Source: Alphaproteobacteria bacterium
Lineage (GTDB): Bacteria; Pseudomonadota; Alphaproteobacteria; SMXS01
Length of the DNA stretch: 64,000 nucleotides
Assembly: GCA_016124315.1 (NCBI GenBank)
Contig: WGNW01000063.1
Location: 1 to 64,000, forward strand
Reading direction: 5' to 3'
Part shown: positions 38,256 to 61,346 of the stretch, piece after piece
Layout of the letters: each line of letters starts with the position of its first letter
How positions within the stretch are numbered: the stretch's first letter is position 1
Translations under genes and position numbers: made by a program
The notes under the pieces: model-generated
Databases searched by the model: none
The model's input: the letters and a program-made list of their open reading frames with translations, nothing else
What the model was told of the DNA's origin: nothing

Positions 38256-38283
38256 GGGTGCGTCCTCCCCTTGGTCTTTTGGT

Positions 38284-39300
38284 TCACGCGATCCGGCAGA
38301 GCTGCTTGCCCAGGTTCTGGCCCCGGAACAGCCGCAGGAAGGTGTGCGGAACCGTCTCGAATCCCTCCTGCACGTCGACCGCGTAGGTCAGCCGGCCGTC
38401 GGCGACCCATTCGCCGAGCTGGCTGCGCGCCTCGTCGAAGCGGTCCGCGTACTGGCCGAGCAGGAAGCCGGCCATGATCGAGGGCTTCCAGACGATGGCC
38501 ATGTAGTTGCGCGGGGGCGCCGGCAACGCGCCGGTATTGTAGCCCGAGATGGCGCCGCAGATGATGATCCGGCTGCCGACGGCGATATTGTTGAGCGCGG
38601 CCTCGAGGATCTCGCCGCCCACATTGTCGTAGAACACATTGAGCCCTTCGGGCGCCAGCTCCCGCAGCCGGCGGCTCACCCGCTCCGCCTTGTAGTCGAT
38701 GGCGGCGTCGAAGCCCGCCTCGCCGGTCAGCCAGGCGCATTTCTCGGCGCCGCCGGCGATGCCGATGACCCGGGCGCCCTTGATGCGGGCGATCTGCCCG
38801 GCGACGGAGCCGGTGGCGCCCGCCGCGCCGGAAACCGCCACCGTGTCGCCAGGCTGGGGCCTGCCCACGTCGAGCATGCCGAAATAGGCGGTCAGCCCGG
38901 TAATGCCGAGGACGCTGAGCGCGGTCTCCTCGGTGACGCCGTCCGTCAGCTTCTGGACGGACAGCAGCTCGCCGCCCGGCGCCGCAAGCGCATAGTCCTG
39001 CCAGCCGAACATGCCGGAAACCCGGTCACCAGGCTTGAATCCGGGATGCCGCGAGTCGACCACCCGGCCGGCGCCCTGGGAGCGCATCACGCCGCCGATC
39101 GGGATCGCCGTGGTGTAGCCGGGCCGCTCCGACATCCAGCCGCGCATGGCCGGCTCATAGGCCACATGGGTCACGCGAACGAGAATCTGCCCGTCGGCCG
39201 GCGTCGGCACGGCCGCCTCGCCCCGGGCGAAATTGTCGACGCCGACCATGCTCTCCGGCCGGCTCGCCAGCAGCCACTGGCGATTGATCTCGGCGTTCAT
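38284..39300 (-). CDS. NADP-dependent oxidoreductase, zinc-free MDR, copy 2 (tandem paralogue)
   Basis: A 338-residue paralogue of the downstream gene, with the same length and landmark motifs: NRQWLLASRPESM, MRGWM, GLTAYFGMLDVGRPQPGDTV, AGATGSVAGQIARI, GGAEKCAWL, NVFYDNVGGEILEAALNNI and HGQNLGKQLCRIA-type end (RGQNLGKQLCRIA). The start at ATG 39300 is chosen since the longer in-frame extension comes from the neighbouring region. Separation from copy 1 is only 28 bp. It probably arose by tandem duplication and divergence; distinct enone substrates are plausible. Confidence 0.92.
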   Translation of the reverse strand: MNAEINRQWLLASRPESMVGVDNFARGEAAVPTPADGQILVRVTHVAYEPAMRGWMSERPGYTTAIPIGGVMRSQGAGRVVDSRHPGFKPGDRVSGMFGWQDYALAAPGGELLSVQKLTDGVTEETALSVLGITGLTAYFGMLDVGRPQPGDTVAVSGAAGATGSVAGQIARIKGARVIGIAGGAEKCAWLTGEAGFDAAIDYKAERVSRRLRELAPEGLNVFYDNVGGEILEAALNNIAVGSRIIICGAISGYNTGALPAPPRNYMAIVWKPSIMAGFLLGQYADRFDEARSQLGEWVADGRLTYAVDVQEGFETVPHTFLRLFRGQNLGKQLCRIA

Positions 39301-46664: not shown

Positions 46665-46770
46665 GGACCTACCCTCCCCGTTTTCTTCCTCATTCCGGCT
46701 CGGCGTGCCCCTTGTTACCGGCCGGTGGAAAAACGATACGAAGTAATTTCGGTTTCGTCACGGAAAAAGA

Positions 46771-46780
46771 TCAAGCGTGA
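46771..46780. promoter_or_regulatory. Shared near-palindromic operator candidate ahead of TonB receptor 1
   Basis: TCAAGCGTGA, preceded by an A-rich run and followed by TTGTTGG. It lies 107 bp upstream of the receptor 1 start. One of four related sites in this island. Confidence 0.45.
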
Positions 46781-46857
46781 TTGTTGGTTTTAAAAGCGTT
46801 GTGTACGTAATGTTTTAGACGCAGCGGTTCTCGGCCCTCCCGTAACGGCCTTACAAC

Positions 46858-46886
46858 AAAAAGGGCGGGCGCCGAAGCGCCCGCCC
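46858..46886 (-). terminator. Rho-independent terminator after TonB receptor 2
   Basis: On the minus strand: GGGCGGGCGC-TTCG-GCGCCCGCCC, a 10-bp stem, then five T residues. It starts 42 nt after the receptor stop and is a canonical intrinsic terminator. Confidence 0.85.
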
Positions 46887-46927
46887 GTAAGTTTCAGGTT
46901 GGTCCGCGCGCGGCGCGGAGCCGACGC

Positions 46928-49612
46928 CTAGAAGTAGACGCCGAACTCCATGCCGAACTCGCGCGGACGGCCCCACATGGTGAAGTTCCACAGACCCGCC
47001 ACCGAGTTGGCGCCGGTGCGATACCGCTGGTCCAGGATGTTCTTCACATAGGCCGTCACCCGGTAGCGCTCGTCCGCGTCGCGCCAGGTCAGGCTGGCGT
47101 CCCACAGGGTGCGGGCGCTGTACTGGGTGTAGAGCGAGTTGAACACCGAGGACTCGGACACCGACGTGTAGTTCACCGTGGTGTTCATGGTCAGCGTACC
47201 GCCATTGCCCAGCGAGGCGTCGTAGGTGATGCCGCCGCCCAGCTTCCAGTGCGGCGAGAACGGCACGGTCAGGTCCGACAGGTCCTGCCCGCCCAGCATG
47301 AACTCGATGTACTTATGGTCCATGTAGCCCATGTTGAAGTCGATGCGCAGGTCGTCGAGCGGCACCCACGTCGCCTCCAGCTCCACGCCGATGTTGCGCG
47401 ACTTGCCCGCATTCACGTTGATCGTCTCCTGGGTCGTCGTCCCGAACGCGTCGGTGAACGGAATGACCTGGGAGCGGACCAAGTTGGAATAGCGGGTGTA
47501 GTAGACCGAGAGGTTGGTCTGCAGGGTCTGGTCGAAGAACCGCGCCTTCAGGCCCGCCTCGGCGTTCCAGTTGGTCTCGGATTCGAAGGGCTGGCAGGTG
47601 GCCAGGCTCGAGCAGGTCTCGGTGAAGCCGCCCGGGATGAAGCCCGTCGAATAGCTGGCGTAGATCATGGCGTCCTCGACCACCTTGTAGTCGAGCACGG
47701 CGCGCCAGGTCAGCTTCGCCCAGTGATCGTGGAACGTGTCGGCGATGCCGAAGGCGCTGTCGGGCAGCGGAATATGGAACGGATCCAGGTCCGCCGCGGT
47801 GAAGCCGCTGCCGACGCGCGAGACCGCGTTCGACCGCTTGTCGAGGCAGGCGCCGTTCACCGTGACCTGGTCCCGGGCGGGCGTCAGGTCGGTGCAGGGG
47901 CCGCCCGGATTCTGCCGGCGGAAGAAGGTCTTCACGTCGTAGGTGTAGCGGCCGCCCAGGGTGAAGCGGAGCTTGTCGGTGATGTCGTAGTGACCGTCGA
48001 TGTAGATGGCGTAGGTGTTACGCTTCTGGCGCGCGCCGGTCATCGTCGGATCGTTGATGTAGTCCAGGTCGAGGTTCAGGAAGCCCCGGTCGTCCAGCAG
48101 GCCGGAGGCGACCAGCGGGTTCGAACTGTTCGGATCGACCGACGGCAGGAAGGTGATCAGGCTGGTGAGGCCGACCGTGGAATAGGCCAGCATGTCGGTC
48201 TTGTCGTAGGCGTAGGAGAGACCGGCGACGAAGTTGAACGGCCCGTCGAAGGTAGTGGTCGCCCGCAGCTCGATCTGGGCCTGCTTGCGCGTGGTGTTGC
48301 GCGACGCGTCGAACAGCGACGTGAACGCCTCGCCCGTGTAAGTGTCGGGCAGGATTTCCGTCATGTGCCGGTAGGCGGTGATCAGCTTGAACGCCACGTC
48401 GTCGTAGGTCAGCGTCTGCTGCAGGTTGTAGCCCTCGACGCTCACCCGGTGGCCCTTGGTCTGGCAGAAGGCGCCGCCGCCGAAGCACTGGTTGGTGGTG
48501 CCGGTGTTGTAGACGTCCTTCTGGCCGGTGGCCTCGACGCCGTCGAAGCCCAGCAGCGGCAGCAGCATGTAGGTCGGCGCGTTGCGCACGAAGGTGCCGT
48601 CCGAGAGGCGGGCGACGCCCGGGTCGACCTGGCCCAGCGCCGGCGATTCGTTGACGCCGGGAACGGCATCCGACCGGTCACGCAGGAAGTCGAAGATGAA
48701 GTAGGCCTCGTAGTGGTCGCTGGGCGTCAGCAGCGCCTTGAAGCGGCCCGAGAAGGAATCGGTGCCGTTGAGGTGCTCGCCGCCGCCCTGGCTGTTGGTG
48801 TTGAGCTCCGGCGGGAACGGCGGGTTGACCACCGGCAGGCCGTAGTTGGAGTAGATCGGCACGACGTTGGGGAAGTTGTTGGCCGCCTTGCCGTTGCGGA
48901 AGTAGCCGTCGTCGTAGTCGTAGATGGCGGTCAGGCGGAACGCCAGCTTGTCCTGGATGACGGGAATGTTGATGGCGAGGCGGCCTTTGCCGATCATGCC
49001 GCCATCCTTGTTGTCGAACTTGCCGATCTGGGCCTCGATGTCGGCGCTGAACTCGTTCAGCTTCGGCCGCTTGGTGATGATCGAGATGGCGCCGCCAGTG
49101 GCGCTCTTGCCGAACAGCGTGCCCTGCGGACCGCGATACACCTCGACCCGGTCGACGTCGAACAGCTCGACGAACTGGGACTGCACGTTGGTCAGCGCGA
49201 ACTCGTCGAGCAGCAGCACCACCGAGCTGTCCTGGGTCACCAGGATCGAGTTCTGGCCGGTGCCGCGGATGCCGCCGGCGACGGCGCGGAAGCCCGAGAC
49301 CTGGCCGAGCTGCACGCCCGGCGACAGCTCGCTGACCGCGAGGATGTCGGTGCGGAAGGTGTTCTTGAGCTGGTTGGCGGAGATCGCCGACAGCGAGATC
49401 GGCACGTCCTGCGCCAGCTCGTTCCGCTTGGTGCCGGTGACGGTCACCGATTCCAGGGTGCCCAGCATGGGCTTGCCGGCCGGCGTGGTCGCCTGGCTGG
49501 CCGCCGGGTGCTGCTGGGATGGGGCCGCGTCCTGCGCGGCGGCCTGGCCCGCCATGGCGGCCAGAGGCAATGCGATCGACGCGCAGAGCGCGCTACGCCA
49601 CTTCACAATCAT
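46928..49612 (-). CDS. TonB-dependent outer-membrane receptor 2 (paralogue of receptor 1)
   Basis: An 894-residue receptor with a signal peptide ending AAMAGQAAAQ (about 1-26), a low-complexity linker, TonB box-like ESVTVTGTK, a plug with VELFDVDRVEVYRGPQG and FGKSATGGAISIITKRP, and a 22-strand barrel ending GMEFGVYF. The plug and C-terminal third are almost identical to receptor 1, while loops at about 260-330 and 480-500 differ. This is the pattern expected if paralogues changed ligand preference. The pair is transcribed in the same direction with an intrinsic terminator between them. It is divergent from the P450 operon across 361 bp. Confidence 0.93.
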   Translation of the reverse strand: MIVKWRSALCASIALPLAAMAGQAAAQDAAPSQQHPAASQATTPAGKPMLGTLESVTVTGTKRNELAQDVPISLSAISANQLKNTFRTDILAVSELSPGVQLGQVSGFRAVAGGIRGTGQNSILVTQDSSVVLLLDEFALTNVQSQFVELFDVDRVEVYRGPQGTLFGKSATGGAISIITKRPKLNEFSADIEAQIGKFDNKDGGMIGKGRLAINIPVIQDKLAFRLTAIYDYDDGYFRNGKAANNFPNVVPIYSNYGLPVVNPPFPPELNTNSQGGGEHLNGTDSFSGRFKALLTPSDHYEAYFIFDFLRDRSDAVPGVNESPALGQVDPGVARLSDGTFVRNAPTYMLLPLLGFDGVEATGQKDVYNTGTTNQCFGGGAFCQTKGHRVSVEGYNLQQTLTYDDVAFKLITAYRHMTEILPDTYTGEAFTSLFDASRNTTRKQAQIELRATTTFDGPFNFVAGLSYAYDKTDMLAYSTVGLTSLITFLPSVDPNSSNPLVASGLLDDRGFLNLDLDYINDPTMTGARQKRNTYAIYIDGHYDITDKLRFTLGGRYTYDVKTFFRRQNPGGPCTDLTPARDQVTVNGACLDKRSNAVSRVGSGFTAADLDPFHIPLPDSAFGIADTFHDHWAKLTWRAVLDYKVVEDAMIYASYSTGFIPGGFTETCSSLATCQPFESETNWNAEAGLKARFFDQTLQTNLSVYYTRYSNLVRSQVIPFTDAFGTTTQETINVNAGKSRNIGVELEATWVPLDDLRIDFNMGYMDHKYIEFMLGGQDLSDLTVPFSPHWKLGGGITYDASLGNGGTLTMNTTVNYTSVSESSVFNSLYTQYSARTLWDASLTWRDADERYRVTAYVKNILDQRYRTGANSVAGLWNFTMWGRPREFGMEFGVYF

Positions 49613-49712
49613 GGGTGACTCCCCCTTGGTGTTTCCCCCTGGAGCCTTTGGAAGCTCCTTGGACGGCGGGAGGTTAAGCAGGAAAAAACCGGGGCGTCAT
49701 CTTAAAACGGTT

Positions 49713-49722
49713 CACGCGTGAC
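49713..49722. promoter_or_regulatory. Shared operator candidate ahead of TonB receptor 2 (perfect palindrome)
   Basis: TCACGCGTGA, a perfect 10-bp palindrome, preceded by AAAACGGT and followed by CTTTAGGG; 101 bp upstream of the receptor start. Confidence 0.5.
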
Positions 49723-49899
49723 TTTAGGGCCTAAGTTATTCTGGTGGTGTGACAATCCGGCAACACCATACAGGATGCTTTTTTAGGTGCGCCAGGCGCG
49801 GGTGTCCAGCGGGAATGGTTGGCGCTTCACCAGAGTGCCGGCGCGGCGCCTTCGGCCTTGACTCCCGCGGCGGCGTAGCTTCAAACTGCCGCAAAACAA

Positions 49900-49909
49900 T
49901 CATGCGTGA
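49900..49909. promoter_or_regulatory. Shared operator candidate ahead of the ABM/P450 operon
   Basis: TCATGCGTGA, preceded by AAAACAA and followed by AGGTTGAG; 64 bp upstream of the first gene of the operon. Confidence 0.48.
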
Positions 49910-49973
49910 AGGTTGAGCCGGCGACGGTTCGCTGCGCGCGACGGGGATCTCATCGAAACGGGAAAGATCGCAG

Positions 49974-50381
49974 ATGGCGACGTTGCTGGCCCATATCCGC
50001 ATCCGGCCGGGCAAGGAGGCGCGGTTCGAGGAACTGCAGGGCGCGCTGTGGCGCTCCACCCATGCCGACGAGCCGGGCTGCCGGCGCTACGAGTTCTTCC
50101 GCGGCGAGGCGGAGGGCAGCTACTACGGCCTGCTCTCCTTCGACGACTTCCAGGCGTTCCTGGTGCACCAGTCCAGCGATGCGCACGAGGATTTCGGCGC
50201 CGAATTCGCCGACGTGGTGAGCGACATCCGTATCGAATGGATCGATCCGGTGCAGGGCGCCTCGGCGCTGGCGCCGACCGCGCCGCAGGAGGCGCCGGAA
50301 GGCGCCGGGGACCTGATGAAGGAATACAGCAAGACATACGCGGTCCGCATGGCGGACTGGTGGCACGCGCTCAGGACCTAG
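49974..50381 (+). CDS. ABM-domain (antibiotic biosynthesis monooxygenase-like) protein 1
   Basis: A 135-residue ferredoxin-like dimeric alpha/beta protein. Pattern: ATLLAHIRIRPGKEARFEEL, CRRYEFFRGEAEGSYYGLLSFDDFQAFLVHQSS and SDIRIEWIDPVQGASAL, then a C-terminal MKEYSKTYAVRMADWWHAL tail absent from minimal ABM domains. Some ABM proteins are cofactor-free monooxygenases, others bind heme or act as isomerases. It starts the seven-gene plus-strand operon and is followed 13 bp later by a paralogue. Confidence 0.8.
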   Translation: MATLLAHIRIRPGKEARFEELQGALWRSTHADEPGCRRYEFFRGEAEGSYYGLLSFDDFQAFLVHQSSDAHEDFGAEFADVVSDIRIEWIDPVQGASALAPTAPQEAPEGAGDLMKEYSKTYAVRMADWWHALRT

Positions 50382-50394
50382 GGAGACGCACGGC

Positions 50395-50793
50395 ATGGCG
50401 ACCATTCTCGCCCACATCAAGGTGTTCGACGGCAAGGAAGCCGAGTTCGAGAAGACGGTGAAGCCGCTCTGGGAAGCGACGCACCGGCTCGAGCCCCATT
50501 GCCGCCGCTACGAATATTTCCGCGGCGAGAAACCGGGTCACTACTACTGCCTGCTGTCGTTCGACGACTTCCGGTCGTTCATGGTCCACCAGACCAGCGA
50601 CCATCACGAGGCGCCCGACTTCCCCTCCTTCCTGGAGGTCATCCGGCTCGAGTGGCTCGACCCGGTCCAGGGCGCCTCGGAGCTGGTGCCGACCGAGCCG
50701 CAGGACGTCCCGGACGACGCCAGCGAGCTGATGAAGCGCTATTCGAAGGACCACGCCGTGGCCATGCAGGACTGGTGGAAACGCCTGCGCTGA
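50395..50793 (+). CDS. ABM-domain protein 2 (tandem paralogue)
   Basis: A 132-residue homologue of the preceding gene with the same layout: ATILAHIKVFDGKEAEFEK, CRRYEYFRGEKPGHYYCLLSFDDFRSFMVHQTSDH, EVIRLEWLDPVQGASELVPTEPQD, and the tail MKRYSKDHAVAMQDWWKRL. GGAGA lies 9 nt before the ATG. It contains histidines (HH at about 67-68) not present in copy 1. The pair may form a heterodimer. It is followed 27 bp later by the P450. Confidence 0.8.
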   Translation: MATILAHIKVFDGKEAEFEKTVKPLWEATHRLEPHCRRYEYFRGEKPGHYYCLLSFDDFRSFMVHQTSDHHEAPDFPSFLEVIRLEWLDPVQGASELVPTEPQDVPDDASELMKRYSKDHAVAMQDWWKRLR

Positions 50794-50820
50794 CCAAGGC
50801 CGGAGACTTGTGAGGACGCC

Positions 50821-52059
50821 ATGAACGAGGAAAAACTCGATATCCGCCTGCTCGACCCGGCCAGCGTCGAGTGCCCCTACCACGACTACCAGCGGCTCCG
50901 CGAGGAAGCGCCGGTCTACCGCATGCCCGAGACCGGCTGGTACGTGGTCACCACCTACGATCTGTGCCGCAAGGTGGCCAAGGACTGGGAGACCTTCTCC
51001 GACCAGCTCAACGACTGGTCCCACGAGACGCTGTGGAGCAATTCGGAGATTCCCGGCCTGTTCGAGAAGGACGGCTGGCCCCGAGACCAGATTCTGTCGC
51101 GCGACCCGCCGCTGCACGACATGTATCGCAGCCTGGTGGACGTCTCGTTCACCAAGAGCCGCATCGACGCCATGGAGCCGTTCATCACCAAGCTGGTGAA
51201 CGAGCTGATCGACAAGTTCATCGACAAGGGCGAGTGCGACTTCATCATGGATTTCGCCTATCCCCTGCCCATGCACGTCATCGCCGACCGGCTCGGCCTG
51301 CCGCCCGAGGACCTGCCCAGGCTGAAGTTCTGGTCGGAGGAGTGGGTGCTGCCCCACGCCCACACCATGAGCCACGAGCGCGAGGTGGAGTGCGCCCGCA
51401 ACATCATCGACCTGCAGCACTACCTGGTGGAGAAGTTCGAGGAGAAGCGCCAGCACCGGGACGACCGCATCATCAGCGACCTGGTGCACGGCCTGTTCAA
51501 CGGCGAGCGCCACCTCAACACCCGCGAGATCCTGTCGATGGTGGAGCAGCTGCTGGTGGGCGGCAACGAGACCACCACCAACGCCATGTCCTCGGGCATG
51601 ATGCTGCTGATCCAGAACCCCGACGAGTACCGCAAGGTCCAGGACGATCCCAAGCTGATCAAGAACTTCGTCGAGGAGGTGCTGCGCATCGAGAGCCCGA
51701 CCCAGGGCATCTTCCGCGTCGCGGTCAAGGACACCGAGCTCGGCGGCGTGAAGATCCCGCGCGGCTCGATGATCAACATGCGCTTCGGCTCGGCCAACCG
51801 GGACGAGAAGGTGTTCCCCGACGCCGGCCGGCTCGACGTGTGCCGCAAGAACGCCGGCGCGCACCTGGCGTTCAGCACCGCCGAGCATCACTGCGTCGGC
51901 GCGCCGCTCACCCGGCAGGAGATGAACATCGCCTTCCGCATCCTGTTCGAGCGGATGAAGAACTTCCAGTTCGCGCCCGACCGGAACGACTTCCAGCACG
52001 CGGGCAACTTCATGGTGCGGGCGCTCAAGCACCTGCACATCACCTTCGAAAAGCGCTGA
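50821..52059 (+). CDS. Cytochrome P450, class I, soluble (copy 1)
   Basis: A 412-residue bacterial P450. The I-helix has GGNETTTN (E251-T252), the ExxR is E286-x-x-R289 in EEVLRIESP, and the heme thiolate Cys is C358 in FSTAEHHCVGAPLTRQE. The usual FGxGxHxCxG is FSTAEHHCVG here, so the two Gly residues before the His are replaced by S and A/E. The N-terminus reads SVECPYHDYQRLREEAPVY, typical of CYP-family proteins that act on terpenoids or steroids. Electrons would come from a ferredoxin and reductase, which are not encoded in this window. It is the third gene of the operon and is followed 5 bp later by an MDR reductase. Confidence 0.93.
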   Translation: MNEEKLDIRLLDPASVECPYHDYQRLREEAPVYRMPETGWYVVTTYDLCRKVAKDWETFSDQLNDWSHETLWSNSEIPGLFEKDGWPRDQILSRDPPLHDMYRSLVDVSFTKSRIDAMEPFITKLVNELIDKFIDKGECDFIMDFAYPLPMHVIADRLGLPPEDLPRLKFWSEEWVLPHAHTMSHEREVECARNIIDLQHYLVEKFEEKRQHRDDRIISDLVHGLFNGERHLNTREILSMVEQLLVGGNETTTNAMSSGMMLLIQNPDEYRKVQDDPKLIKNFVEEVLRIESPTQGIFRVAVKDTELGGVKIPRGSMINMRFGSANRDEKVFPDAGRLDVCRKNAGAHLAFSTAEHHCVGAPLTRQEMNIAFRILFERMKNFQFAPDRNDFQHAGNFMVRALKHLHITFEKR

Positions 52060-52064
52060 CCGGC

Positions 52065-53096
52065 ATGCCGACACTCCCCAACGAACGTCGCAACAACCAG
52101 CTCTACATGGCCCGCTTCCCCAGCGGCGAGGCCGGACCCGGCGACTTCGAGGTGCGCGAGGCGCCGGTGCCCGAGCCCAAGGACGGCGAGGTCCTGGTGG
52201 AGACCCACTACCTGTCGGTGGACGCGGCGCTCCGGCTGATCATGCGCGACAGCAAGGACTTCCTGTTCCGAGTCCAGCCGGGCGACCTGGTGCGCGGCTC
52301 GGTGGCCGGGCGCATCGTCGAATCCCGCAACCCGGATTTCCGCGAGGGCGACTACGTCACCGGCGGGCTCGGCGTGCAGAACTACGCCGTGTCCGACGGC
52401 ACGGGCCTCGCCAAGGTCGACACCGCGACCGCGCCGCTGTCCGCCTGGCTGGGCGGCATGGGCGTCTCGGGCCTCACCGCCTACTTCGCGGTGACCGAGG
52501 AGTGCAAGCCGGCGCCGGGCAAGACGCTGGTGGTGAACGGCGCCGCCGGCGCCGTCGGCTCCATCGCCGGGCAGATCGGCCGCATCCTCGGCGCGCGGGT
52601 GATCGGCATCACCGGCAGCGACGAGAAGTGCCGCTGGCTGACGGAGGAACTGGGCTACGACGTCGCCATCAACTATCGCAACGGCGACCTCTACGAGCGG
52701 CTGGTCGAAGCCGCGCCCGACCGCATCGACGCCATCTTCGACAATGTGGGCGGACCGATCCTCGACGAGAGCCTGCGCTGGATCGGCCTGCGCGGGGTGG
52801 TGCTGCTGTGCGGCTCCACCTCCCAGTATACCGAGGAGAAGATGGCCGGCCCCGCCAACTATATCTGGCTGGGCACCATGCGCGCCCGGATGCAGGGCTT
52901 CGTTGTCTACGATTACGCCGACCGCTTCGCCGAGGCCCAGAAGCAGCTCGCCCAGTGGGTGCGCGAGGGCAAGCTGGTGATGCGCGAGAACGTGGTGGAA
53001 GGCGACGTCGGCGACTTCCCCGACGTCTTCCGCCGTCTCTATCACGGCGAGAACCGCGGCAAGATGGTGATCCGCCTGCCGGCGGCCGCCGACTAG
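52065..53096 (+). CDS. NADP-dependent oxidoreductase, zinc-free MDR, copy 3 (P450 operon)
   Basis: A 343-residue member of the same family as the two genes at 37239-39300, but more divergent (LPNERRNNQLYMARFPSG at the N-terminus). Nucleotide-binding region: GVSGLTAYFAVTEECKPAPGKTLVVNGAAGAVGS (about 129-165 with interruptions), then GSDEKCRWLTEELG and DAIFDNVGGPILDE. C-terminal HGENRGKMVIRLPAAAD. The start at ATG 52065 is 5 nt after the P450 stop. It likely reduces an enone formed after hydroxylation and dehydrogenation. Confidence 0.9.
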   Translation: MPTLPNERRNNQLYMARFPSGEAGPGDFEVREAPVPEPKDGEVLVETHYLSVDAALRLIMRDSKDFLFRVQPGDLVRGSVAGRIVESRNPDFREGDYVTGGLGVQNYAVSDGTGLAKVDTATAPLSAWLGGMGVSGLTAYFAVTEECKPAPGKTLVVNGAAGAVGSIAGQIGRILGARVIGITGSDEKCRWLTEELGYDVAINYRNGDLYERLVEAAPDRIDAIFDNVGGPILDESLRWIGLRGVVLLCGSTSQYTEEKMAGPANYIWLGTMRARMQGFVVYDYADRFAEAQKQLAQWVREGKLVMRENVVEGDVGDFPDVFRRLYHGENRGKMVIRLPAAAD

Positions 53097-53132
53097 AAAA
53101 CAACCTCAGGGAACCAGGAAAGGAACAACGGG

Positions 53133-53912
53133 ATGGGTGCTCTCGATCTCTTCAAGCTGGACGGCAAGGTGGCCGTCGTGACCGGCGCCGGCAAAGGCAT
53201 CGGCCGCGGCATCGCGCTGACGCTGGCCGAGGCCGGCGCGGACGTGGCCGTCGCCTCGCGCAGCAAGGACGACCTGGAAAAGGTGGCGCAGGAAATCCGC
53301 GACCGCGGCCGGCGCGCCATCGCCGTGCCGACGGACGTCACCAAGATGGAATTCCTGGAGAACCTGGCGAAGCGGACGCAGGACGAGCTGGGCAAGATCG
53401 ACATCTGGGTGAACAACGCCGGCGGCCTGCCCGACGGCACGCCGCGCTGGCTGACCCGCACGTCGGAGGAGCAGTTCGAGGCGCAGATCGACCTCAACCT
53501 CAAGGCGGTATGGGCCGGCTGCGTGGTCGCCGCCAAGGCGATGGCGGAGAACGGCGGCGCCATCGTCAACATCTCGTCGCGGGCCGCCAAGGACATGGGC
53601 CCGAACCTGAAGAACGGCCCCTACGGCGCCTCCAAGTCGGCGGTGAACAGCCTGACCGCCACCTTCTCGCGCGAACTGGCCCCGAAGATCCGCATCAACG
53701 CGGTGGCGCCGGGCCCGATCCCGACCGAGAACTTCATCGACTCCATGAAGATGCACACCAAGGAGCGCGAGGAGGAGCTGAGGCAGTACATCGCGCTGCC
53801 GCTGCAGCGCTGGGGCACCCCCGAGGACATCGGCGCCGCCGTGCTCTACATGGTCTCGCCGGCGTCGGGCTGGGTGACCGGCCAGTGCCTCTACGTCACC
53901 GGCGGCTCCTGA
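53133..53912 (+). CDS. Short-chain dehydrogenase/reductase (SDR)
   Basis: A 259-residue classical SDR that oxidises or reduces an alcohol/ketone using NAD(P). It has the TGAGKGIG cofactor motif (17-24), NNAGG near 94-98, active-site S in NISSRAA (about 147) and Y164-x-x-x-K168, and the end VTGQCLYVTGGS. AAAGGAAC precedes the ATG at 11-18 nt. The position between the MDR and iron-ADH genes suggests it handles the P450 hydroxylation product. Classical SDR residues are intact. Confidence 0.93.
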   Translation: MGALDLFKLDGKVAVVTGAGKGIGRGIALTLAEAGADVAVASRSKDDLEKVAQEIRDRGRRAIAVPTDVTKMEFLENLAKRTQDELGKIDIWVNNAGGLPDGTPRWLTRTSEEQFEAQIDLNLKAVWAGCVVAAKAMAENGGAIVNISSRAAKDMGPNLKNGPYGASKSAVNSLTATFSRELAPKIRINAVAPGPIPTENFIDSMKMHTKEREEELRQYIALPLQRWGTPEDIGAAVLYMVSPASGWVTGQCLYVTGGS

Positions 53913-53919
53913 TCCGGGA

Positions 53920-55086
53920 ATGCCGGCGGGCGTCTACGACTACATCCCGCAGGAGCGCATCGTCTTCGGCCGCCCGGCGGCCGAGGCGATCCGCGCGGAA
54001 GCGGAGCGGCTGGGCAAGACCCGGCTGTTCCTCGTCACCGCCAAATCGCTGAACCGCAAGACGCCGGCCATCGGCGAGCTGCGGGCGGCGCTGGGCCGCC
54101 TGGTGGTCGGGCTCTATGACGACTGCATCGCCCACACGCCGCGCGAGACGGTGGTCGCCTGCGCCGAGGCGGTGCGCCAGGCCGGCGCCGACATGATCGT
54201 CACCATCGGCGGCGGCACCGCCATCGACATGGTGAAGGCGGTGCAGATCTGCCTGGCCGAGGACGTGCGCACGGTCGAGGGCCTCGACGACTGGCACACC
54301 CGGGTCAACCCGGACGGCAGCTACCACACGCCGCGGACGAAACCCTCGCCGGTGCGCCAGATCATCGTGCCGACCACCCTGTCGGGCGCCGAGTTCAGCA
54401 CCATCGCCGGCGTCACCGACACCCGGACCCACGTGAAGGAAGGCTATGTGGGCACCGACGCGGCCGGCCAGGCGGTGATCCTCGACGCGGCGATCACCGT
54501 CCACACGCCCGAATGGCTGTGGCTGTCGACCGGCGTGCGCGGCCTCGACCACGCCGTCGAGGGCATCTGCTCGATCCGCGCCAATCCGTTCATCACCGGC
54601 TGCTGCCGGCAGGCCATCGAGATGTTCGCCGCCGCCCTGCCCCGCACCAAGGCCGACCCGCAGGATCTCGACGCCCGCCTCGCCTGCCAGCAGGCCACCT
54701 GGATCGCCGGCCACGGCATCGACCGCGCCCCCTACGGCGCCTCCCACGGCATCGGCGGCGTGCTGGGCGGCCTCAAGGACGTGCCGCACGGCTACACCTC
54801 GTGCATCCTGCTGCCCCACGTGCTGCGCTGGAACCGGCCGGCGACCGAGGCCCAGCAGCGCTACGTGTCCGCCGCCTTCGGACATCCCGACGCCGACGCC
54901 GCAGACCTGGTGGCGGACTTCGTCGGCCGCCTCGGACTGCCGCAGCGGCTGCGCGACGTGGGCGTGAGCCGCGACGACTTCCCCGCCATCGCCAGGCGGT
55001 GCCGCAAGAACATGTGGGTGCTGACGAATCCCCGTCCGCTGCCCGACGACGACGCCATCATGGCCCTGCTCGAGGCCGCCTACTGA
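53920..55086 (+). CDS. Iron-containing alcohol dehydrogenase family protein
   Basis: A 388-residue group III metal-type alcohol dehydrogenase, closest in pattern to maleylacetate reductase/1,3-diol dehydrogenases. It has the N-terminal Rossmann-like half with TIGGGTAIDMVKAV (92-105), the sequence VPTTLSGAEFSTIAGVTD, then metal-site region histidines in GLDHAVEG, ASHGIGG and VPHGYTSC. The gap to the SDR stop is 7 bp, showing translational coupling. It probably oxidises a second alcohol or reduces an aldehyde in the same pathway. NAD(H) or NADP(H) preference is not evident. Confidence 0.88.
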   Translation: MPAGVYDYIPQERIVFGRPAAEAIRAEAERLGKTRLFLVTAKSLNRKTPAIGELRAALGRLVVGLYDDCIAHTPRETVVACAEAVRQAGADMIVTIGGGTAIDMVKAVQICLAEDVRTVEGLDDWHTRVNPDGSYHTPRTKPSPVRQIIVPTTLSGAEFSTIAGVTDTRTHVKEGYVGTDAAGQAVILDAAITVHTPEWLWLSTGVRGLDHAVEGICSIRANPFITGCCRQAIEMFAAALPRTKADPQDLDARLACQQATWIAGHGIDRAPYGASHGIGGVLGGLKDVPHGYTSCILLPHVLRWNRPATEAQQRYVSAAFGHPDADAADLVADFVGRLGLPQRLRDVGVSRDDFPAIARRCRKNMWVLTNPRPLPDDDAIMALLEAAY

Positions 55087-55139
55087 CCCGGGTTCGTCGG
55101 TGGCGCGCCCGCGCCGCCGGCCCAGCAACGGAACGCATC

Positions 55140-56711
55140 ATGCTCACGCAGTTCGAACGGGAAGCCAACCTCTCCGACCTCATGGACTACCACGCCCGCA
55201 CCCGGCCGGAGGCGGAGATGCTGGTGTTCGAGAGCCGGCGCTGGACCTGGGGCGAGGGCGACCGCATCGTCAACCGGATCGCCCACGGCCTGATCGGCCT
55301 GGGCGTCGGGCGCAACGACAAGGTGGCGGTCCTGGCCGCCACGTCGCCGGAATACTTCTTCACCTTCTGGGGCATCATCCGCGCCGGCGCCTGCGCGGTG
55401 CCGCTGTCGGGCATGGCGAGCGCCGAATCCCTGGAGCTGATGATCGCCGACAGCGGCGCCAAGGTGCTGTTCGCCTCGGAAAAGACCATGGACCTGATCG
55501 GCCGCATCGACGCGCGCCTCGACGGCATCGTCACCGGCGGGCGCATCGCCTACGACTTCGCCGCGCCCGGCTGGCGCCGCTTCGACGACTGGATCGCCGC
55601 CGAGCCCGACACCAACCCCGGCGTCGCCATCGACCCGCTGGACGACTTCAACATCATCTACTCGTCGGGCACCACCGGCGTGCCCAAGGGCATCCTGCAC
55701 GACCACCGGACGCGCATCTCCTACTGGGCGACCCGCGACGCCTTCGCCTACGGGCCGGACACGCGGCTGATCGTCTCCACCCCGCTCTATTCCAACACCA
55801 CCCTGTTCGCGCTGCTGCCGGCGCTCGCCTGGGGCGGCGCGACCATCCTGCTGCCCCGGTCGGACACGGAGAACTTCCTGCGCCTCGCCGAGCGCGAGCG
55901 GGCGACCCACACCATGCAGGTGCCGGTGCAGTACCACCGGCTGCACGACTTCCCCGACTTCGGCGGGTACGACCTGTCCAGCTTCAAGTGGAAGTTCTGC
56001 ACCTCGGCGCCGCTGCGGCCGGCCTTCAAGACCTGGCTGATCACCGCCTGGCCGGGCGGCTTCACCGAGATCTACGGCATGACCGAGGGCGGCGTCGGCT
56101 GCTTCCTCAACGCCCACGAATATCCGGACAAGGTGCATACCGTCGGCTTCGCCCGCGAGGGCAGCGAGTTGCGGGTGGTGGACGAGGCGATGAACGAGGT
56201 GCCGCGCGGCGAGATCGGGGAGCTGATCGGCTGGTCCGCCTACATGATGACCGGCTACTACAACAAGCCCGACAAGACCACCGAAAGCCGCTGGACCGAC
56301 AAGGAGGGCCGCGTCTGGCAGCGCAGCGGCGACATGGGGCGGATGGACGAGGACGGCTTCATCGTGCTGCTCGACCGAGCCAAGGACATGATCATCTCGG
56401 GCGGCTTCAACATCTACGCCGCCGACCTGGAGGCTGAGCTGCTGAAGCACCCGGCGGTGGACGACGCGGCGGTGATCGCCGTGCCCAGCGAGGACTGGGG
56501 CGAGACGCCGCTCGGCCTGGTGGTGTTGAAGCCCGGCGCCTCGGCCAGCGGCGACGACATCCGCGGCTGGGCCAACGAGCGGCTGGGCAAGCTGCAGCGG
56601 CTGAGCGCCGTCGAGCTCCGCGACACCCTGCCCCGCAGCACCATCGGCAAGCTGCTCAAGCGCGAGCTGCGCGAACCCTACTGGGCCGGCATGGAACGCC
56701 GGGTGGGATAA
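55140..56711 (+). CDS. AMP-dependent acyl-CoA synthetase/ligase
   Basis: A 523-residue ANL-superfamily enzyme that activates a carboxylic acid to its CoA thioester via an acyl-AMP. Motifs: P-loop YSSGTTGVPKG (174-184), YGMTEGG (about 311-317), TGYYNKPDKTTE, SGDMGRMDEDGF, DRAKDMIISGGFNIY, and the C-terminal catalytic lysine K504 in PRSTIGKLLKRELRE. ATG 55140 follows the iron-ADH stop by 53 bp. It ends the plus-strand operon, so the final product of the pathway is expected to be a CoA thioester for beta-oxidation. Confidence 0.92.
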   Translation: MLTQFEREANLSDLMDYHARTRPEAEMLVFESRRWTWGEGDRIVNRIAHGLIGLGVGRNDKVAVLAATSPEYFFTFWGIIRAGACAVPLSGMASAESLELMIADSGAKVLFASEKTMDLIGRIDARLDGIVTGGRIAYDFAAPGWRRFDDWIAAEPDTNPGVAIDPLDDFNIIYSSGTTGVPKGILHDHRTRISYWATRDAFAYGPDTRLIVSTPLYSNTTLFALLPALAWGGATILLPRSDTENFLRLAERERATHTMQVPVQYHRLHDFPDFGGYDLSSFKWKFCTSAPLRPAFKTWLITAWPGGFTEIYGMTEGGVGCFLNAHEYPDKVHTVGFAREGSELRVVDEAMNEVPRGEIGELIGWSAYMMTGYYNKPDKTTESRWTDKEGRVWQRSGDMGRMDEDGFIVLLDRAKDMIISGGFNIYAADLEAELLKHPAVDDAAVIAVPSEDWGETPLGLVVLKPGASASGDDIRGWANERLGKLQRLSAVELRDTLPRSTIGKLLKRELREPYWAGMERRVG

Positions 56712-56766
56712 CCGACATGCGGACGCTTCTCCCGACCGGGATCGGCGGCGTCGGACCCGCCGGATC

Positions 56767-56783
56767 ATTACCGCGAGGGTAAT
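56767..56783. promoter_or_regulatory. Small perfect palindrome ATTACC-GCGAG-GGTAAT in the ligase-DAPDH-like gap
   Basis: A 6-bp inverted repeat with 5-nt loop, 56 bp after the ligase stop and 214 bp before the next ATG. It could be a weak hairpin or an operator. The rest of the 285-bp gap has no ORF with a ribosome binding site. Confidence 0.35.
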
Positions 56784-56996
56784 TGCGCCTTTCGCCGGCC
56801 GCTGGAAAACTGAACGGTAGAGCCTGTTGCTGGAGTCGGAAGGCGCAATGCCCGCTCAGGGCTTTCTACGGCTTCCCTACCTGGCGATAGAACGGCACCT
56901 TTCGGAGGAGCCCCTCTGAAAGCTGCATCCGATGGAAACCGGTTCTGCGGCCCGGTATCGTGCGACTTTGCACGGACAACGCGACGGGGGGAGGCC

Positions 56997-58079
56997 ATGA
57001 CGTACAAGGTGATCCAGTGGTCCAGCGGCAATGTAGGCAAGCACGCGGTGCGGGCCGTCGCCGAACGTACCGGCATGAAGCTCGTCGGCATGTACGTCTT
57101 CTCGGCCGACAAGGCCGGACGGGACGCGGGCGAGATCGCCGGCATCGGCAAGCTGGGCGTCAAGGCCACCGACGACGTGGAGAAGATCATCGCGATGGAC
57201 GCCGACGTGGTGCTGCACACCGCGCTGCCCTCGCTGGTCTACGGCGAGGAGCCCATGGCCGACATCGATACGTTCTGCCGGCTGCTGGCATCCGGCAAGA
57301 ACGTCATTACCACCGTCGGCTACATGTATCCCCAGGTCTACGGAGGCAAGTTCACCAAGCAACTGGAGGAGGCCTGCCGGCTGGGCGGTTCGACCTTCCA
57401 TTCCACCGGCCTCAACCCCGGCTGGATGGGCGACCTGCTGCCGGTGACCATGACCGCGCTGTCGCGCCGGGTGGACCGCATCCACGTGCGGGAGATCTCC
57501 AACTTCCAGCACTACCCGTCGCCCGAGATCATGTTCGACATGATGGGCTTCGCCAAGACGCCGGCCCAGTTCAAGAACGACGCCGAGCGCTACAAATTCT
57601 GGCTGTCGGGCCTGTTCCGCGAAAGCGTGCAGATGGTGGCCGACGCGCTGGGCGTGAAACTGGACGAGATCCGCGAAAAGACCGAGCGGGCGCTGGCGGA
57701 GACCGACCTTGAAACCGCGGCGGGGCTGGTGAAGAAGGGCACCGTGGCTGGCCAGCACTGGGAATGGGCCGGTATGGCTGGCGGCGAGAAGGTGATCGTC
57801 CACGAGACGGTCTGGCGCATGCACGAGAGCGTCGCGCCCGGCTGGCCCAACGGCGACCATTCGATCGTCGTCGACGGCGAGCCGCGCATGGAGGTGAAGT
57901 TCGACGCGCGCTGGATCGGCGACGGCCTGCAGGGCACGGCGATGCACGCGGTCAACGCCATCCCCTATGTCTGCGACGCGCCCTGCGGCATCAAGACCTT
58001 CCTCGACCTGCCCTGGATCGTCGGCAAGGGCACGGTCCACGTCCCGAAGAAAAAGGCCGACAAGAAAAAGAAGAAGTAG
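56997..58079 (+). CDS. Diaminopimelate-dehydrogenase-like NAD(P)-dependent oxidoreductase
   Basis: A 360-residue reductase of the DAP_DH_C/dihydrodipicolinate reductase-like group, often seen in catabolic clusters. Cofactor-binding loop: WSSGNVGKHAVRAV (8-21), then GKLGVKATDD, TVGYMYPQVYGG and TGLNPGWMGDLLP. The C-terminus is an unusually basic tail of KKKADKKKKK after the last structured residues. GGGGGAGG lies 2-9 nt before the ATG. The biosynthetic role (lysine) is unlikely given context; a role in the catabolic island is inferred. It is convergent with the DHA2 pump gene (4 bp apart). Confidence 0.82.
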   Translation: MTYKVIQWSSGNVGKHAVRAVAERTGMKLVGMYVFSADKAGRDAGEIAGIGKLGVKATDDVEKIIAMDADVVLHTALPSLVYGEEPMADIDTFCRLLASGKNVITTVGYMYPQVYGGKFTKQLEEACRLGGSTFHSTGLNPGWMGDLLPVTMTALSRRVDRIHVREISNFQHYPSPEIMFDMMGFAKTPAQFKNDAERYKFWLSGLFRESVQMVADALGVKLDEIREKTERALAETDLETAAGLVKKGTVAGQHWEWAGMAGGEKVIVHETVWRMHESVAPGWPNGDHSIVVDGEPRMEVKFDARWIGDGLQGTAMHAVNAIPYVCDAPCGIKTFLDLPWIVGKGTVHVPKKKADKKKKK

Positions 58080-58083
58080 CGGC

Positions 58084-59622
58084 CTACTCCACCGCCGCTT
58101 CCGGCGGCGGCGCCATCATGTTCTTGGGCAGGCACACCAGCAGCAGCAGCGGCAGGATGCAGATGGTGGCGATCATCACCAGCTGGAAGTCGGTGGTGAA
58201 GGCCATCATCGACGCCTGCCGCGTCAGTTCGGCGTCGATGGCGGCGCGGCCGGCGGCGCTGCCCAGGTCCCAGACGTCCGGCTTCAGGTAGTTGAACGCG
58301 TTGTTGAACGGCGTGAACAGCTCGGACAGGGTCGCGTGGTTGAGCTGGGAGGCGCGGGTCTGGAAGGCGAACACCACGGCGATGCCCATGCTCGAGCCGA
58401 AGGTGCGCATGGTGTTGGCGAACGACGCCGCCTCGGTTCGCAGCCGGGTGCTCAGCGTCGAGTAGGAGATCAGGTTCAGCGACACGAAGGTCATGCCGAT
58501 GCCGATGCCCTGCACCACGCCGATCCAGATCAGCTCGAACTCGCCGGTATAGAGGTTGAAGCGGGACATCTCCCACAGGGTGAAGATGGTCAGGCTGAGG
58601 CCGATGATGATGAACAGCCTCGGGTCGCCGCCCCGCTGGGCGAGGCGGCCCACCGTGGTCATGCCGATCATCATGCCGAAGCCGCGCGGCGCGATGATCA
58701 TGCCGGTGGTCAGCACCGGATAGCCCATCAGGTTCTGCAGCATCACCGGCACCAGCGCCATGGAGGTGTAGAGCACCATGGCGACGCAGAAATAGAACAT
58801 GGAGCCGGCGACGAAGTTGCGGTCGCGCAGGATCTCCCGGTGCACGAACGGGTTCTTCGAGAACACCATGTGGTGGATGAACAGGTAGAACCCGGTGAAC
58901 GCCAGCACCGCCCACAGCACGATCTCGCTGGACTGGAACCAGTCCTGCCGCTCGCCCCGGTCGAGCATGAGCTGGAACGCCATGATGCCGAGCGCCAGCG
59001 CGGCGTAGCCGTAGCCGGCGAACTTGCGCTCCTTGTCGAGCGGCGTGTCCTGGGAGAACAGCGCCAGGCCGATGAACGACAGCACGCCGAACGGCACGTT
59101 GATGTAGAAGATCCAGCGCCAGTTGTAGAACTCGGTGAGGTAGCCGCCCAGGGTCGGTCCGAGGATCGGTCCGACCATCACGCCGACGCCCCACACCGCC
59201 ATGGCCTTGCCGCGCTCGTGGTCGGGATAGCTGTCGAGCATGATCGACTGGGAGAGCGGGATGAGGCCGGCGCCCAGCACACCCTGCAGGGCGCGGAAGA
59301 TCAGCATCTCGTCCAGCGTCGTGGCGAGGCCGCACAGCGCCGAGGCGACGGTGAAGCCGGCGATGGACATCAGGTAGATGGACTTGCGGCCGTAGCGCAG
59401 CGCGAGGAAGCCGGTGAGCGGGATCATCACCGCCGAGGCGACGATGTAGGAAGTGAGCACCCAGGCAATCTGGTCCGGCGTCGCCGACAGGCTGGCCTGC
59501 ATGTGCGGCAGCGCCACGTTGGCGATGGTGCCGTCGATCGCCTGCATGGTGGTGGCCATCATCGCCGAGACGGACACCAGCCCCCGATAGGGCGGAACCT
59601 TGTGCGCGGTCGCCGCGGTCAT
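58084..59622 (-). CDS. emrB: DHA2-family MFS multidrug efflux transporter (EmrB-like)
   Basis: A 512-residue, 14-TM proton antiporter. TM1 has MQAIDGTIANVALPHMQASL, followed by TSYIVASAVMIPLTGFLALRYGRK (motif A-like) and RALQGVLGAGLIPLSQSIML in TM4. GPILGPTLGGYLTEFYNWRWIFYINVP is the motif C region. The start at ATG 59622 is preferred over the upstream in-frame ATG. Only 7 bp separate it from the emrA stop. With EmrA it should form a tripartite pump working with an outer-membrane TolC-like channel, not found here. Confidence 0.93.
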   Translation of the reverse strand: MTAATAHKVPPYRGLVSVSAMMATTMQAIDGTIANVALPHMQASLSATPDQIAWVLTSYIVASAVMIPLTGFLALRYGRKSIYLMSIAGFTVASALCGLATTLDEMLIFRALQGVLGAGLIPLSQSIMLDSYPDHERGKAMAVWGVGVMVGPILGPTLGGYLTEFYNWRWIFYINVPFGVLSFIGLALFSQDTPLDKERKFAGYGYAALALGIMAFQLMLDRGERQDWFQSSEIVLWAVLAFTGFYLFIHHMVFSKNPFVHREILRDRNFVAGSMFYFCVAMVLYTSMALVPVMLQNLMGYPVLTTGMIIAPRGFGMMIGMTTVGRLAQRGGDPRLFIIIGLSLTIFTLWEMSRFNLYTGEFELIWIGVVQGIGIGMTFVSLNLISYSTLSTRLRTEAASFANTMRTFGSSMGIAVVFAFQTRASQLNHATLSELFTPFNNAFNYLKPDVWDLGSAAGRAAIDAELTRQASMMAFTTDFQLVMIATICILPLLLLVCLPKNMMAPPPEAAVE

Positions 59623-59629
59623 GAAGCGA

Positions 59630-60739
59630 TCAGCCGAAGATCTTGTGGAGCAGCCTCGCCAACCCGCTGCTGTGCTCGGTGTCGACCTCCACATGGGCGG
59701 AGAGCCCCGCCGCCAGCGGCGGATCGCCGGTGTAATCGGTGAGGTAGACGCGCACCGGCAGGCGCTGGACCACCTTCACCCAGTTGCCCGAGGCGTTCTG
59801 CGGCGGGATCAGCGAGAACTCGGCGCCGGTGGCCGGGCTGATGCTGCCCACGGTGGCGTGCCACGTCTTGTCGGGATAAAGGTCCACCGACACGGTCGCC
59901 TTCTGCCCGGCGTGCACGTGGGTGAGCTCGGTTTCCTTGAAGTTGGCGGTCACCCACAGGGAGCGCGTCGCCACCAGGCTGACCACGGGCTTGCCCGGCT
60001 CCACGTGCTCGCCGAGCTGCAGGTTGACCGAGGCGACGATGCCGTCCTCGGGCGCGCGCACCACGGTGTGCTCCAGGTCCAGCTTGGCCTGCTCGTAGGC
60101 GGCGACGGCCGCCATCACCTCGGGGTTCTTGTCCACGTCCTGGCCGGGATTGCCGTTCAGCCGCGCGTCGATGGACGCCAGGTCCTGTCGCGCCTCGTCC
60201 CGCTTCTGGTTGGCGACGTTGAGGTCGTGCTCGGCCTGGTCGAACCGCACCTTGGAGACCACGCCGCGGGCCACCAGCTCCTTCTGCCGGTCGAACTCCT
60301 TCTTGGCGTAGGCGATGTTCTCGCCGGTGGTGCCCAGGGCCGCCTGCTTCTCCCGGTAGGAGGCCTGGAGCGCGGAAATCTCGTTGCGCGTTGCCTCGAC
60401 CTGGGCCTTGGCCTTGGCCACGGCGATGCGGTACTGGGCGTCGTCGATGCGGAACAGCACCTCGCCGGCCTTCACCCGCTGGTTGGTCTGGGCGTCGATC
60501 TCGACGGCCCGGCCCTCGACCTGGGCGCTGAGGAACGACTTGTTGGCCTGCACGAAGGCGTTGTCGGTGCTGACGTAGCGCCCCGAGAGCAGGTAGATGA
60601 CGAGGCCGGCGATCAGCCCGAGGACGAGCACCACCAGCAGCCCCTTGCGCACCAGTTCGCGCACGGAGAAGCGGGAGGCTTTCTGCTCGTCGCCGGCCTC
60701 GAAGGCGCCGGGTCTCTCGAAACGGGCCAGCTTATTCAT
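59630..60739 (-). CDS. emrA: EmrA/HlyD-family membrane fusion protein
   Basis: A 369-residue periplasmic adaptor with one N-terminal TM (about 33-52, VLVLGLIAGLVIYLLSG). The biotinyl-lipoyl domain part is VSTDNAFVQANKSFLSAQVEGRAVEID. A long alpha-helical hairpin spans about 105-215 (QASYREKQAALG...LNVANQKRDEARQDL). The beta-barrel part contains VRAPEDGIVASVNLQLGEHVEPGK. The marR stop overlaps the emrA start by 8 bp, so all three genes form marR-emrA-emrB. Confidence 0.93.
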   Translation of the reverse strand: MNKLARFERPGAFEAGDEQKASRFSVRELVRKGLLVVLVLGLIAGLVIYLLSGRYVSTDNAFVQANKSFLSAQVEGRAVEIDAQTNQRVKAGEVLFRIDDAQYRIAVAKAKAQVEATRNEISALQASYREKQAALGTTGENIAYAKKEFDRQKELVARGVVSKVRFDQAEHDLNVANQKRDEARQDLASIDARLNGNPGQDVDKNPEVMAAVAAYEQAKLDLEHTVVRAPEDGIVASVNLQLGEHVEPGKPVVSLVATRSLWVTANFKETELTHVHAGQKATVSVDLYPDKTWHATVGSISPATGAEFSLIPPQNASGNWVKVVQRLPVRVYLTDYTGDPPLAAGLSAHVEVDTEHSSGLARLLHKIFG

Positions 60740-61202
60740 GGGCCGCCAGCTCCAGCAGGGTTTCCGTGGTCTTGTTGGTCAGTCTCGCCTTGATGCGCAT
60801 CAGCATCTCGATCAGCTTGTCGCGTTCCCGTGGGGTGAGGTCGCCCAGGATCTCACTCCGCAGTTCCTCGGAAATGGTTTCGAGGCGGTTGATCAGCGGG
60901 CGGGCCTTGGGGGTGAGGAAGAGCATGTAGGCGCGCCGGTCCTGCGGGTCGGCGCGGCGCTCTACGTACCCTGCGCCCTCCAGCTTGTCCAGCAGGCGCA
61001 CCAGGGTGATCGGCTCCACGTCCATGCGGTCGGCGAGCTGGCTCTGGTTGATGCCCTCGACGCGGCGCAGATGCGCCAGCACCCGCCACTGGCTGCGGGT
61101 GAATCCCATGTCGCGGACGCGCCGGTCGAACTCGCGGCGCATCAGCCTGCCAATGTCGTGCACCAGGAAGCCGAAGGTGCGATCCATTTCGTCGGTATGC
61201 AT
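60732..61202 (-). CDS. MarR-family transcriptional regulator
   Basis: A 156-residue winged-helix repressor. The start at 61202 (MHTDEMDRTF) is chosen because the longer frame reads back through the operator region. Key parts: recognition-helix region NQSQLADRMDVEPITLVRLLDKLEGAGYVERRADPQDRRAYML is split by the HTH (about 52-95) and the wing RRADPQDRRAY. It likely autoregulates the marR-emrA-emrB operon through the palindrome at 61228-61250 and responds to a phenolic or pathway-derived ligand. Confidence 0.92.
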   Translation of the reverse strand: MHTDEMDRTFGFLVHDIGRLMRREFDRRVRDMGFTRSQWRVLAHLRRVEGINQSQLADRMDVEPITLVRLLDKLEGAGYVERRADPQDRRAYMLFLTPKARPLINRLETISEELRSEILGDLTPRERDKLIEMLMRIKARLTNKTTETLLELAAHE

Positions 61203-61227
61203 GTTGGTGCTTAATATAGAGCGTCTA

Positions 61228-61250
61228 GATAATATACAATGCTTATTATC
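61228..61250. promoter_or_regulatory. MarR-type operator palindrome
   Basis: A 23-bp imperfect inverted repeat with arms GATAATA and TATTATC and inner CA/TG symmetry. It stands 26 bp upstream of marR and about 97 bp upstream of the P450 gene, in an AT-rich island unlike the flanks. It could regulate both directions. Confidence 0.68.
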
Positions 61251-61321
61251 TTGTGAACGGTAAATCTGGGGTTCAGGGTTCACCGCCCTTTACCGCCGGA
61301 CGGCAACGGGGGTACAAACCA

Positions 61322-61331
61322 TCATGTGTGA
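61322..61331. promoter_or_regulatory. Shared operator candidate just upstream of P450 copy 2
   Basis: TCATGTGTGA, preceded by ACAAACCA and followed by CTTTGGGG, only 15 bp upstream of the ATG. Binding here would overlap or lie next to the ribosome binding site GGGGAG (61336-61341). Confidence 0.42.
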
Positions 61332-61346
61332 CTTTGGGGAGCGATC

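Follow-up and report, generated by a model that had tools for sequence, protein, structure and literature searches.

In the window, by which we mean the whole stretch of 64,000 nucleotides analysed, two tandem TonB-dependent receptor genes, an ABM/P450 operon, a second P450 gene and a MarR-family gene are found around four copies of a palindromic site, which we call operators 1 to 4:

43959-46664, minus strand: TonB-dependent receptor 1, 901 aa (PF00593 7.6e-37, Plug 3.2e-13)
46766-46785, minus strand: putative operator 1, core 46771-46780 TCAAGCGTGA, read AACAATCACGCTTGATCTTT on the gene strand, upstream of receptor 1, 28.5 bits
46928-49612, minus strand: TonB-dependent receptor 2, 894 aa, 80% identical to receptor 1 (PF00593 1.3e-36)
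49707-49726, no strand assigned: putative operator 2, core 49712-49721 TCACGCGTGA, a perfect palindrome, upstream of receptor 2, 17.9 bits
49895-49914, plus strand: putative operator 3, core 49900-49909 TCATGCGTGA, upstream of the ABM/P450 operon, 30.1 bits
49974-50381, plus strand: ABM-domain monooxygenase-like protein 1 (PF03992 1.1e-12)
50395-50793, plus strand: ABM-domain monooxygenase-like protein 2 (PF03992 2.1e-10)
50821-52059, plus strand: cytochrome P450 copy 1, 412 aa (PF00067 4.7e-27)
52065-53096, plus strand: zinc-type NADP-dependent oxidoreductase, ADH_N_2 (PF16884 3.2e-31)
53133-53912, plus strand: short-chain dehydrogenase (PF13561 2.4e-57)
53920-55086, plus strand: iron-containing alcohol dehydrogenase (PF25137 1.7e-35, PF00465 5.5e-28)
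60732-61283, minus strand: MarR-family regulator of the island (PF01047 1.3e-17)
61317-61336, plus strand: putative operator 4, core 61322-61331 TCATGTGTGA, 20 bp before P450 copy 2, 20.6 bits
61347-62609, plus strand: cytochrome P450 copy 2, 420 aa (PF00067 4.2e-25)

From the site centre to the start codon, the distance is about 111 bp for receptor 1, 104 bp for receptor 2, 69 bp for the first ABM gene and 20 bp for P450 copy 2. The nearest solved structure to P450 copy 1 is a protein named CYP125MRCA, a resemblance that may point to a steroid- or terpenoid-like substrate. Elsewhere in the window, two tandem paralogous genes of about 1 kb each (37239-39287) resemble in DNA, on the opposite strand, a portion of the ADH_N_2 gene (52065-53096).

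The first-pass annotation had reported four 10-bp sites, each preceded by an A-rich run and most followed by a KTNRGG-type stretch. Three of them, at 46771, 49900 and 61322, are exactly where they had been placed; the second, given as 49713-49722, was off by one, and is indeed a perfect palindrome at 49712-49721. The A-rich run and the KTNRGG stretch proved to be not separate elements, but the two arms (AAMAR...YTKTT around the core) of one longer palindrome of about 20 bp, roughly AAMARTCAYGCRTGAYTKTT, of which the four 10-mers are the cores. Within the 64 kb, TCANGYGTGA matches at these four places only, while 0.93 +/- 1.04 matches were expected and five were reached in none of 100 shuffles. 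A symmetric matrix of 20 positions was built from 37 gene-oriented sites, none of which lies in the window or at a locus orthologous to it. It ranked the four sites first to fourth in the window (30.1, 28.5, 20.6 and 17.9 bits, the fifth position scoring 9.6), the core of this matrix, and less so its flanks, being fixed by construction because a pattern taken from the window motif had served to find the training sites. A score of 17.9 bits or higher was never reached in 30 first-order Markov copies of the window. We confirmed in this way that the four short sites are true copies of one control site of about 20 bp.

In the 3.95-Mb host genome (G000), the 10-mer was found 33 times, versus 7 for its reversed control. 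The bare 10-mer also matches by chance and within coding sequence, and the flanks strip nearly all such matches. A scan against random DNA, proposed along with the original motif, revealed a difference in density when the extended pattern AMANTCANGCRTGA was used: 12 matches in the host against 0 for the reversed control, and 81 against 5 across ten genomes of the family. Among 289 genomes sampled from the class, the four that belong to the family had 12, 11, 11 and 7 matches, and the 285 others mostly 0 to 2, the highest count being 7 in a 5.4-Mb genome; per genome, the genus and G007 reach 7 to 13 matches versus 0 to 2 in most of the class. According to ORF calls, each of the 12 matches in the host either falls between genes or overlaps a start codon. 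At 5 of the 12, the first gene encodes a TonB receptor or a P450 (binomial 2e-6, for a background of roughly 73 such genes in 3,700, the latter number being estimated). Sites outside the window show the same palindrome arms in their flanks. A literature search for the palindrome string returned unrelated papers only.

Outside the window, the following genes of the host were found with a site:

Contig C21: a pair of TonB receptors and two P450 genes with sites, those of the second receptor and second P450 being variants (matrix or extended pattern)
Contig C21: a TonB protein gene, with a weak site lacking the flanks
Contig C46: a P450 gene preceded by a site
Contig C72: a TonB receptor gene preceded by a site
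Contig C7: an SDR/acyl-CoA dehydrogenase operon preceded by a site, with a FabK-like nitronate monooxygenase gene divergent from it
Contig C36: an aldo/keto reductase (AKR) gene preceded by a site
Contig C73: a SnoaL-like protein gene preceded by a site
Contig C39: an EthD protein gene preceded by a site
Contig C76: a zinc alcohol dehydrogenase gene preceded by a site
Contig C90: a site between gltX and comEC

Since the sites stand at uptake and oxidation genes over many loci, they form a genome-wide regulon and are not a feature of the island alone. The comEC/gltX pair is the only clearly non-catabolic target; its site, AAAGTCAYGCGTGATAGTTT (L036:6001, that is C90:34053 of the host; also L232, L240 and L246), is strongly conserved in four species. 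On C21, a second island (L028, C21:36000-55900) contains tandem P450 genes with sites before the first and the third, as well as a TonB gene followed by ExbB/ExbD-looking genes, two TonB receptors being encoded elsewhere on this contig. Tandem duplicated receptors with one site per copy are seen both in the window (43959-49612, 80% identical) and on C21 (L027:6313-11891, 56%). Most of the approximately 38 P450 and 35 TonB receptor genes of the host are without a site, which rules out a global TonB/P450 regulator.

Conservation in related strains, suggested as a check on the motif, was borne out: in related species, sites are kept before the orthologs of the TonB receptor, P450, SDR/acyl-CoA dehydrogenase, aldo/keto reductase, SnoaL, EthD and gltX genes and of the ABM operon. 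The targets recur at orthologous places in G002, G003 and G006, and partly in G007 to G009. Operator 1 is kept upstream of the orthologous receptor at L043, L044, L045 and in G006, operator 2 corresponds to sites preceding receptor genes in G003 (L245) and G006 (L247), and operator 3 is kept at L043, L044 and L045/G002 (evidently the same assembly), as well as in G003 and G006. The forms taken by the site at receptor promoters are TCATGCTTGA, TCACGGTTGA, TCACGATTGA or TCACGCTTGA. A single receptor is present at L043 and L044, versus the tandem pair of the window. Orthologs of P450 copy 1 with 90% identity are present in three further genomes (L043 to L045). Copy 2 is absent from these syntenic loci, and its 73% identical orthologs are found elsewhere in G002, G003 and G006, where they adjoin an EthD gene, with a site between both, 111 bp upstream of the P450; the host has its EthD gene on C39, apart from P450 copy 2 (C19), with a site at each. 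For the SDR operon, the AKR, SnoaL and gltX genes and the C21 receptors, the site is found again in at least three species, and P450 sites are present too in G007, G008 and G009, which represent two further genera. Taken together, these comparisons support a conserved, family-specific and dispersed regulon of uptake and oxidative catabolism genes.

The position of the site relative to the promoter was best seen at the ABM operon, upstream of which lies the following element:

49858-49887, plus strand: putative sigma-70-type promoter of the ABM operon (TTGACT at 49858-49863, 18-nt spacer, CAAACT at 49882-49887)

Its promoter function is deduced from the conservation of both boxes and of their spacing while the spacer sequence varies. 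Upstream, the aligned sequences vary, apart from TTGACT, CA(A/C)ACT exactly 18 nt further on, and the operator block ACA(A/G)TCACG(C/T)ATGAAGGTTG; in six genomes, G003 and G006 included, TTGACT-N18-CA(A/C)ACT is followed by the operator 11-12 nt downstream (12 nt in the window). The aldo/keto reductase gene has the same layout, TTGCGG-N17-TCTAAT with the site 12 nt further downstream. Being 11-12 nt after the −10 box, the site would be near the point where transcription is expected to start; a protein bound there blocks the polymerase, and the placement of the site at both loci appears repressor-like. At the SnoaL and EthD loci, the site immediately precedes a TTGGMC element and is near the −35 box or upstream of it, a position from which repression and activation are both possible. 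The start codon of the SDR gene (ATG or GTG) is inside the operator TCACGC[A/G]TGA (L025:6001-6010, orthologs L233, L239 and L303), so that the operator coincides with the start codon and perhaps with the start site, and the mRNA may be leaderless.

We searched for the protein that might read these sites. No TetR gene was found on the contig of the window, and the host genome has about 36 TetR-type genes. One of them, TetR-A (C7:17929-18567), is the last gene of the SDR-acyl-CoA dehydrogenase-TetR operon, on another contig than the window, and the site at the start of this operon (C7:15835) is a perfect palindrome. TetR-A has orthologs in 10 of 10 family genomes, mostly in or adjoining an operon with its own site. 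A site precedes the SDR operon holding or adjoining TetR-A in the genus and G009, and in G007 a site is found 113 bp before the TetR-A ortholog itself (L215); the SDR-TetR pair of G008 has no site above the matrix threshold. In the 289-genome class sample, E values below 1e-90 were obtained only within the family, the best outsider being 41% identical. The distribution of TetR-A matches the range of site enrichment, a co-occurrence that cannot separate TetR-A from other family-specific regulators because orthology is complete inside the family. TetR-A carries a TetR_N helix-turn-helix domain (PF00440, 46.9 bits for a cut-off of 24) and matches solved structures only distantly; compared with the named equivalogs BetI, RutR, AcrR, FadR and PsrA, it scored 47.6 bits at best, the NCBIfam cut-offs being at least 118. 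Its neighbours are ADH_N_2, glyoxalase-like, luciferase-like, thiolase-like and cytochrome c genes; a steroid operon of the HIP/KstR2 type was rejected as its context, the expected CoA-transferase being absent among them. On these grounds, TetR-A is the most likely reader of the sites, and we favour, with reasonable though limited confidence, the explanation that the four sites are operators of one dimeric TetR-family repressor controlling a dispersed regulon of receptors and oxidative enzymes.

Alternatively, the main reader may be TetR-B or TetR-C, or several TetR paralogs may share the operator, each with its own inducer. TetR-B is 34% identical to TetR-A, with a recognition helix TRGAVQYYF versus SRGAMQYHF; most of this helix is common to TetR-A, B and C. 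Furthermore, a strong site, ATAAAGTCATGCGTGATGGTCC, is found 45-60 bp upstream of TetR-B in four species, G001, G002, G004 and G005 (near-identical sequence in G002; locus L227:2291-3004, also L287, L288 and L289). However, this site has decayed in G003 and is lost in G000 and G006, although the regulon is retained. The promoters of those TetR-C genes that were examined are devoid of a site, and the site of the TetR-A operon is kept in nearly all species looked at. We consider this alternative unlikely. As to the more specific proposal that TetR-A, B and C act on one operator sequence, such that different inducers converge on the TonB receptor/P450 regulon, it is rather doubtful.

A reader from another family (LysR, GntR or a two-component response regulator, for example), encoded elsewhere and having the TetR genes as mere targets, would account for the non-catabolic gltX/comEC among the targets, and for a site position that varies relative to the promoter, as is the case for dual-function regulators. 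A palindromic operator of about 20 bp and autoregulation are nevertheless typical of TetR proteins, and no regulator type other than TetR was seen to start directly downstream of a site at the loci examined, which makes a reader of this kind improbable. A LysR gene is present beside a G007 site (L226), on the wrong side of it. CRP/FNR-type sites (TGTGA-N6-TCACA) were rejected, since the half-sites are here in the opposite order, TCAY..RTGA.

The MarR protein, the only regulator that the first-pass annotation had identified in the island, is encoded divergently from P450 copy 2, but it is not the reader because relatives with sites are without it: G002, G007, G008 and G009 all keep sites and have no close ortholog, the best match in G002 (100% complete) being a 41% identical paralog. 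With a gene that adjoins HlyD/MFS efflux genes, and given this distribution, MarR is excluded as regulator of the sites. An A+T-rich stretch upstream of the MarR gene (61180-61260) is possibly its own site for these efflux genes. Finally, chance or compositional matches, as observed for the bare 10-mer inside coding sequence elsewhere, are a negligible prospect in view of the extended-pattern counts versus controls, the matrix ranks, the Markov copies and the conserved orthologous promoters.

Coming back to a TetR-family repressor, most likely TetR-A, we propose that its dimer would act in trans by binding the palindrome of about 20 bp upstream of outer-membrane receptor and oxidative catabolic enzyme genes dispersed over the genome. 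As the TetR-A operon has its own site, TetR-A would also regulate itself. When the substrate is absent, the repressor would sit on or next to the promoter, until released by an inducer that is probably an intermediate of the pathway, an acyl-CoA for instance; receptors and P450s would then be switched on together. Repression, the inducer and the identity of the protein are what we infer, and by analogy with EdcR and PheR, release by a pathway intermediate appears most likely. The idea of the first-pass annotation that one DNA-binding protein could co-regulate uptake and oxidation is supported by the comparative data, and a single protein would read all four sites of the window.

KstR and KstR2 also control dispersed regulons, which include genes for P450s, SDRs and acyl-CoA dehydrogenases; their operators are probably of another sequence than the site described here, they belong to another phylum, and TonB receptors are not known among their targets. 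These two actinobacterial proteins of the TetR family repress the upper and the lower pathway of cholesterol catabolism, and their inducers are CoA thioesters (PMC8700777). EdcR of Caenibius tardaugens is a TetR repressor of the estradiol cluster, whose palindromic operator, TnnCnnTACnAnTnGTAnnGnnA, overlaps the −10 box; the cluster includes the edcT promoter, and weak self-repression was proposed (PMC8700777). Like the system proposed here, it associates a sphingomonad TetR-type repressor, a palindromic operator and a catabolic target cluster. It differs in that its regulon is one local cluster, whereas here the sites are on many contigs and the candidate reader is encoded elsewhere; TnnCnnTACnAnTnGTAnnGnnA is a different sequence and does not match our site consensus. 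PheR of Sphingobium sp. SHPJ-2 is an IclR repressor of a catabolic operon, acting over the start site with an essential GCAACG core; in its deletion mutant, tonB/exbBD and TonB receptors rise as well, uptake and oxidation being therefore coupled there (PMC13273656). It differs by its family, IclR, and by a receptor effect reported from transcriptomics rather than from a common site shown receptor by receptor (PMC13273656).

In sphingomonad-like bacteria, TonB receptors and P450s are abundant and their substrates mostly unassigned. A common operator singles out a few co-acting genes among about 35 receptors and 38 P450s; it predicts receptor-enzyme pairs, and the candidate repressor could be used to find the inducer. 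Should the reading by paralogous TetR proteins be true, it would amount to a bacterial network for sensing xenobiotics or terpenoids through one DNA code.
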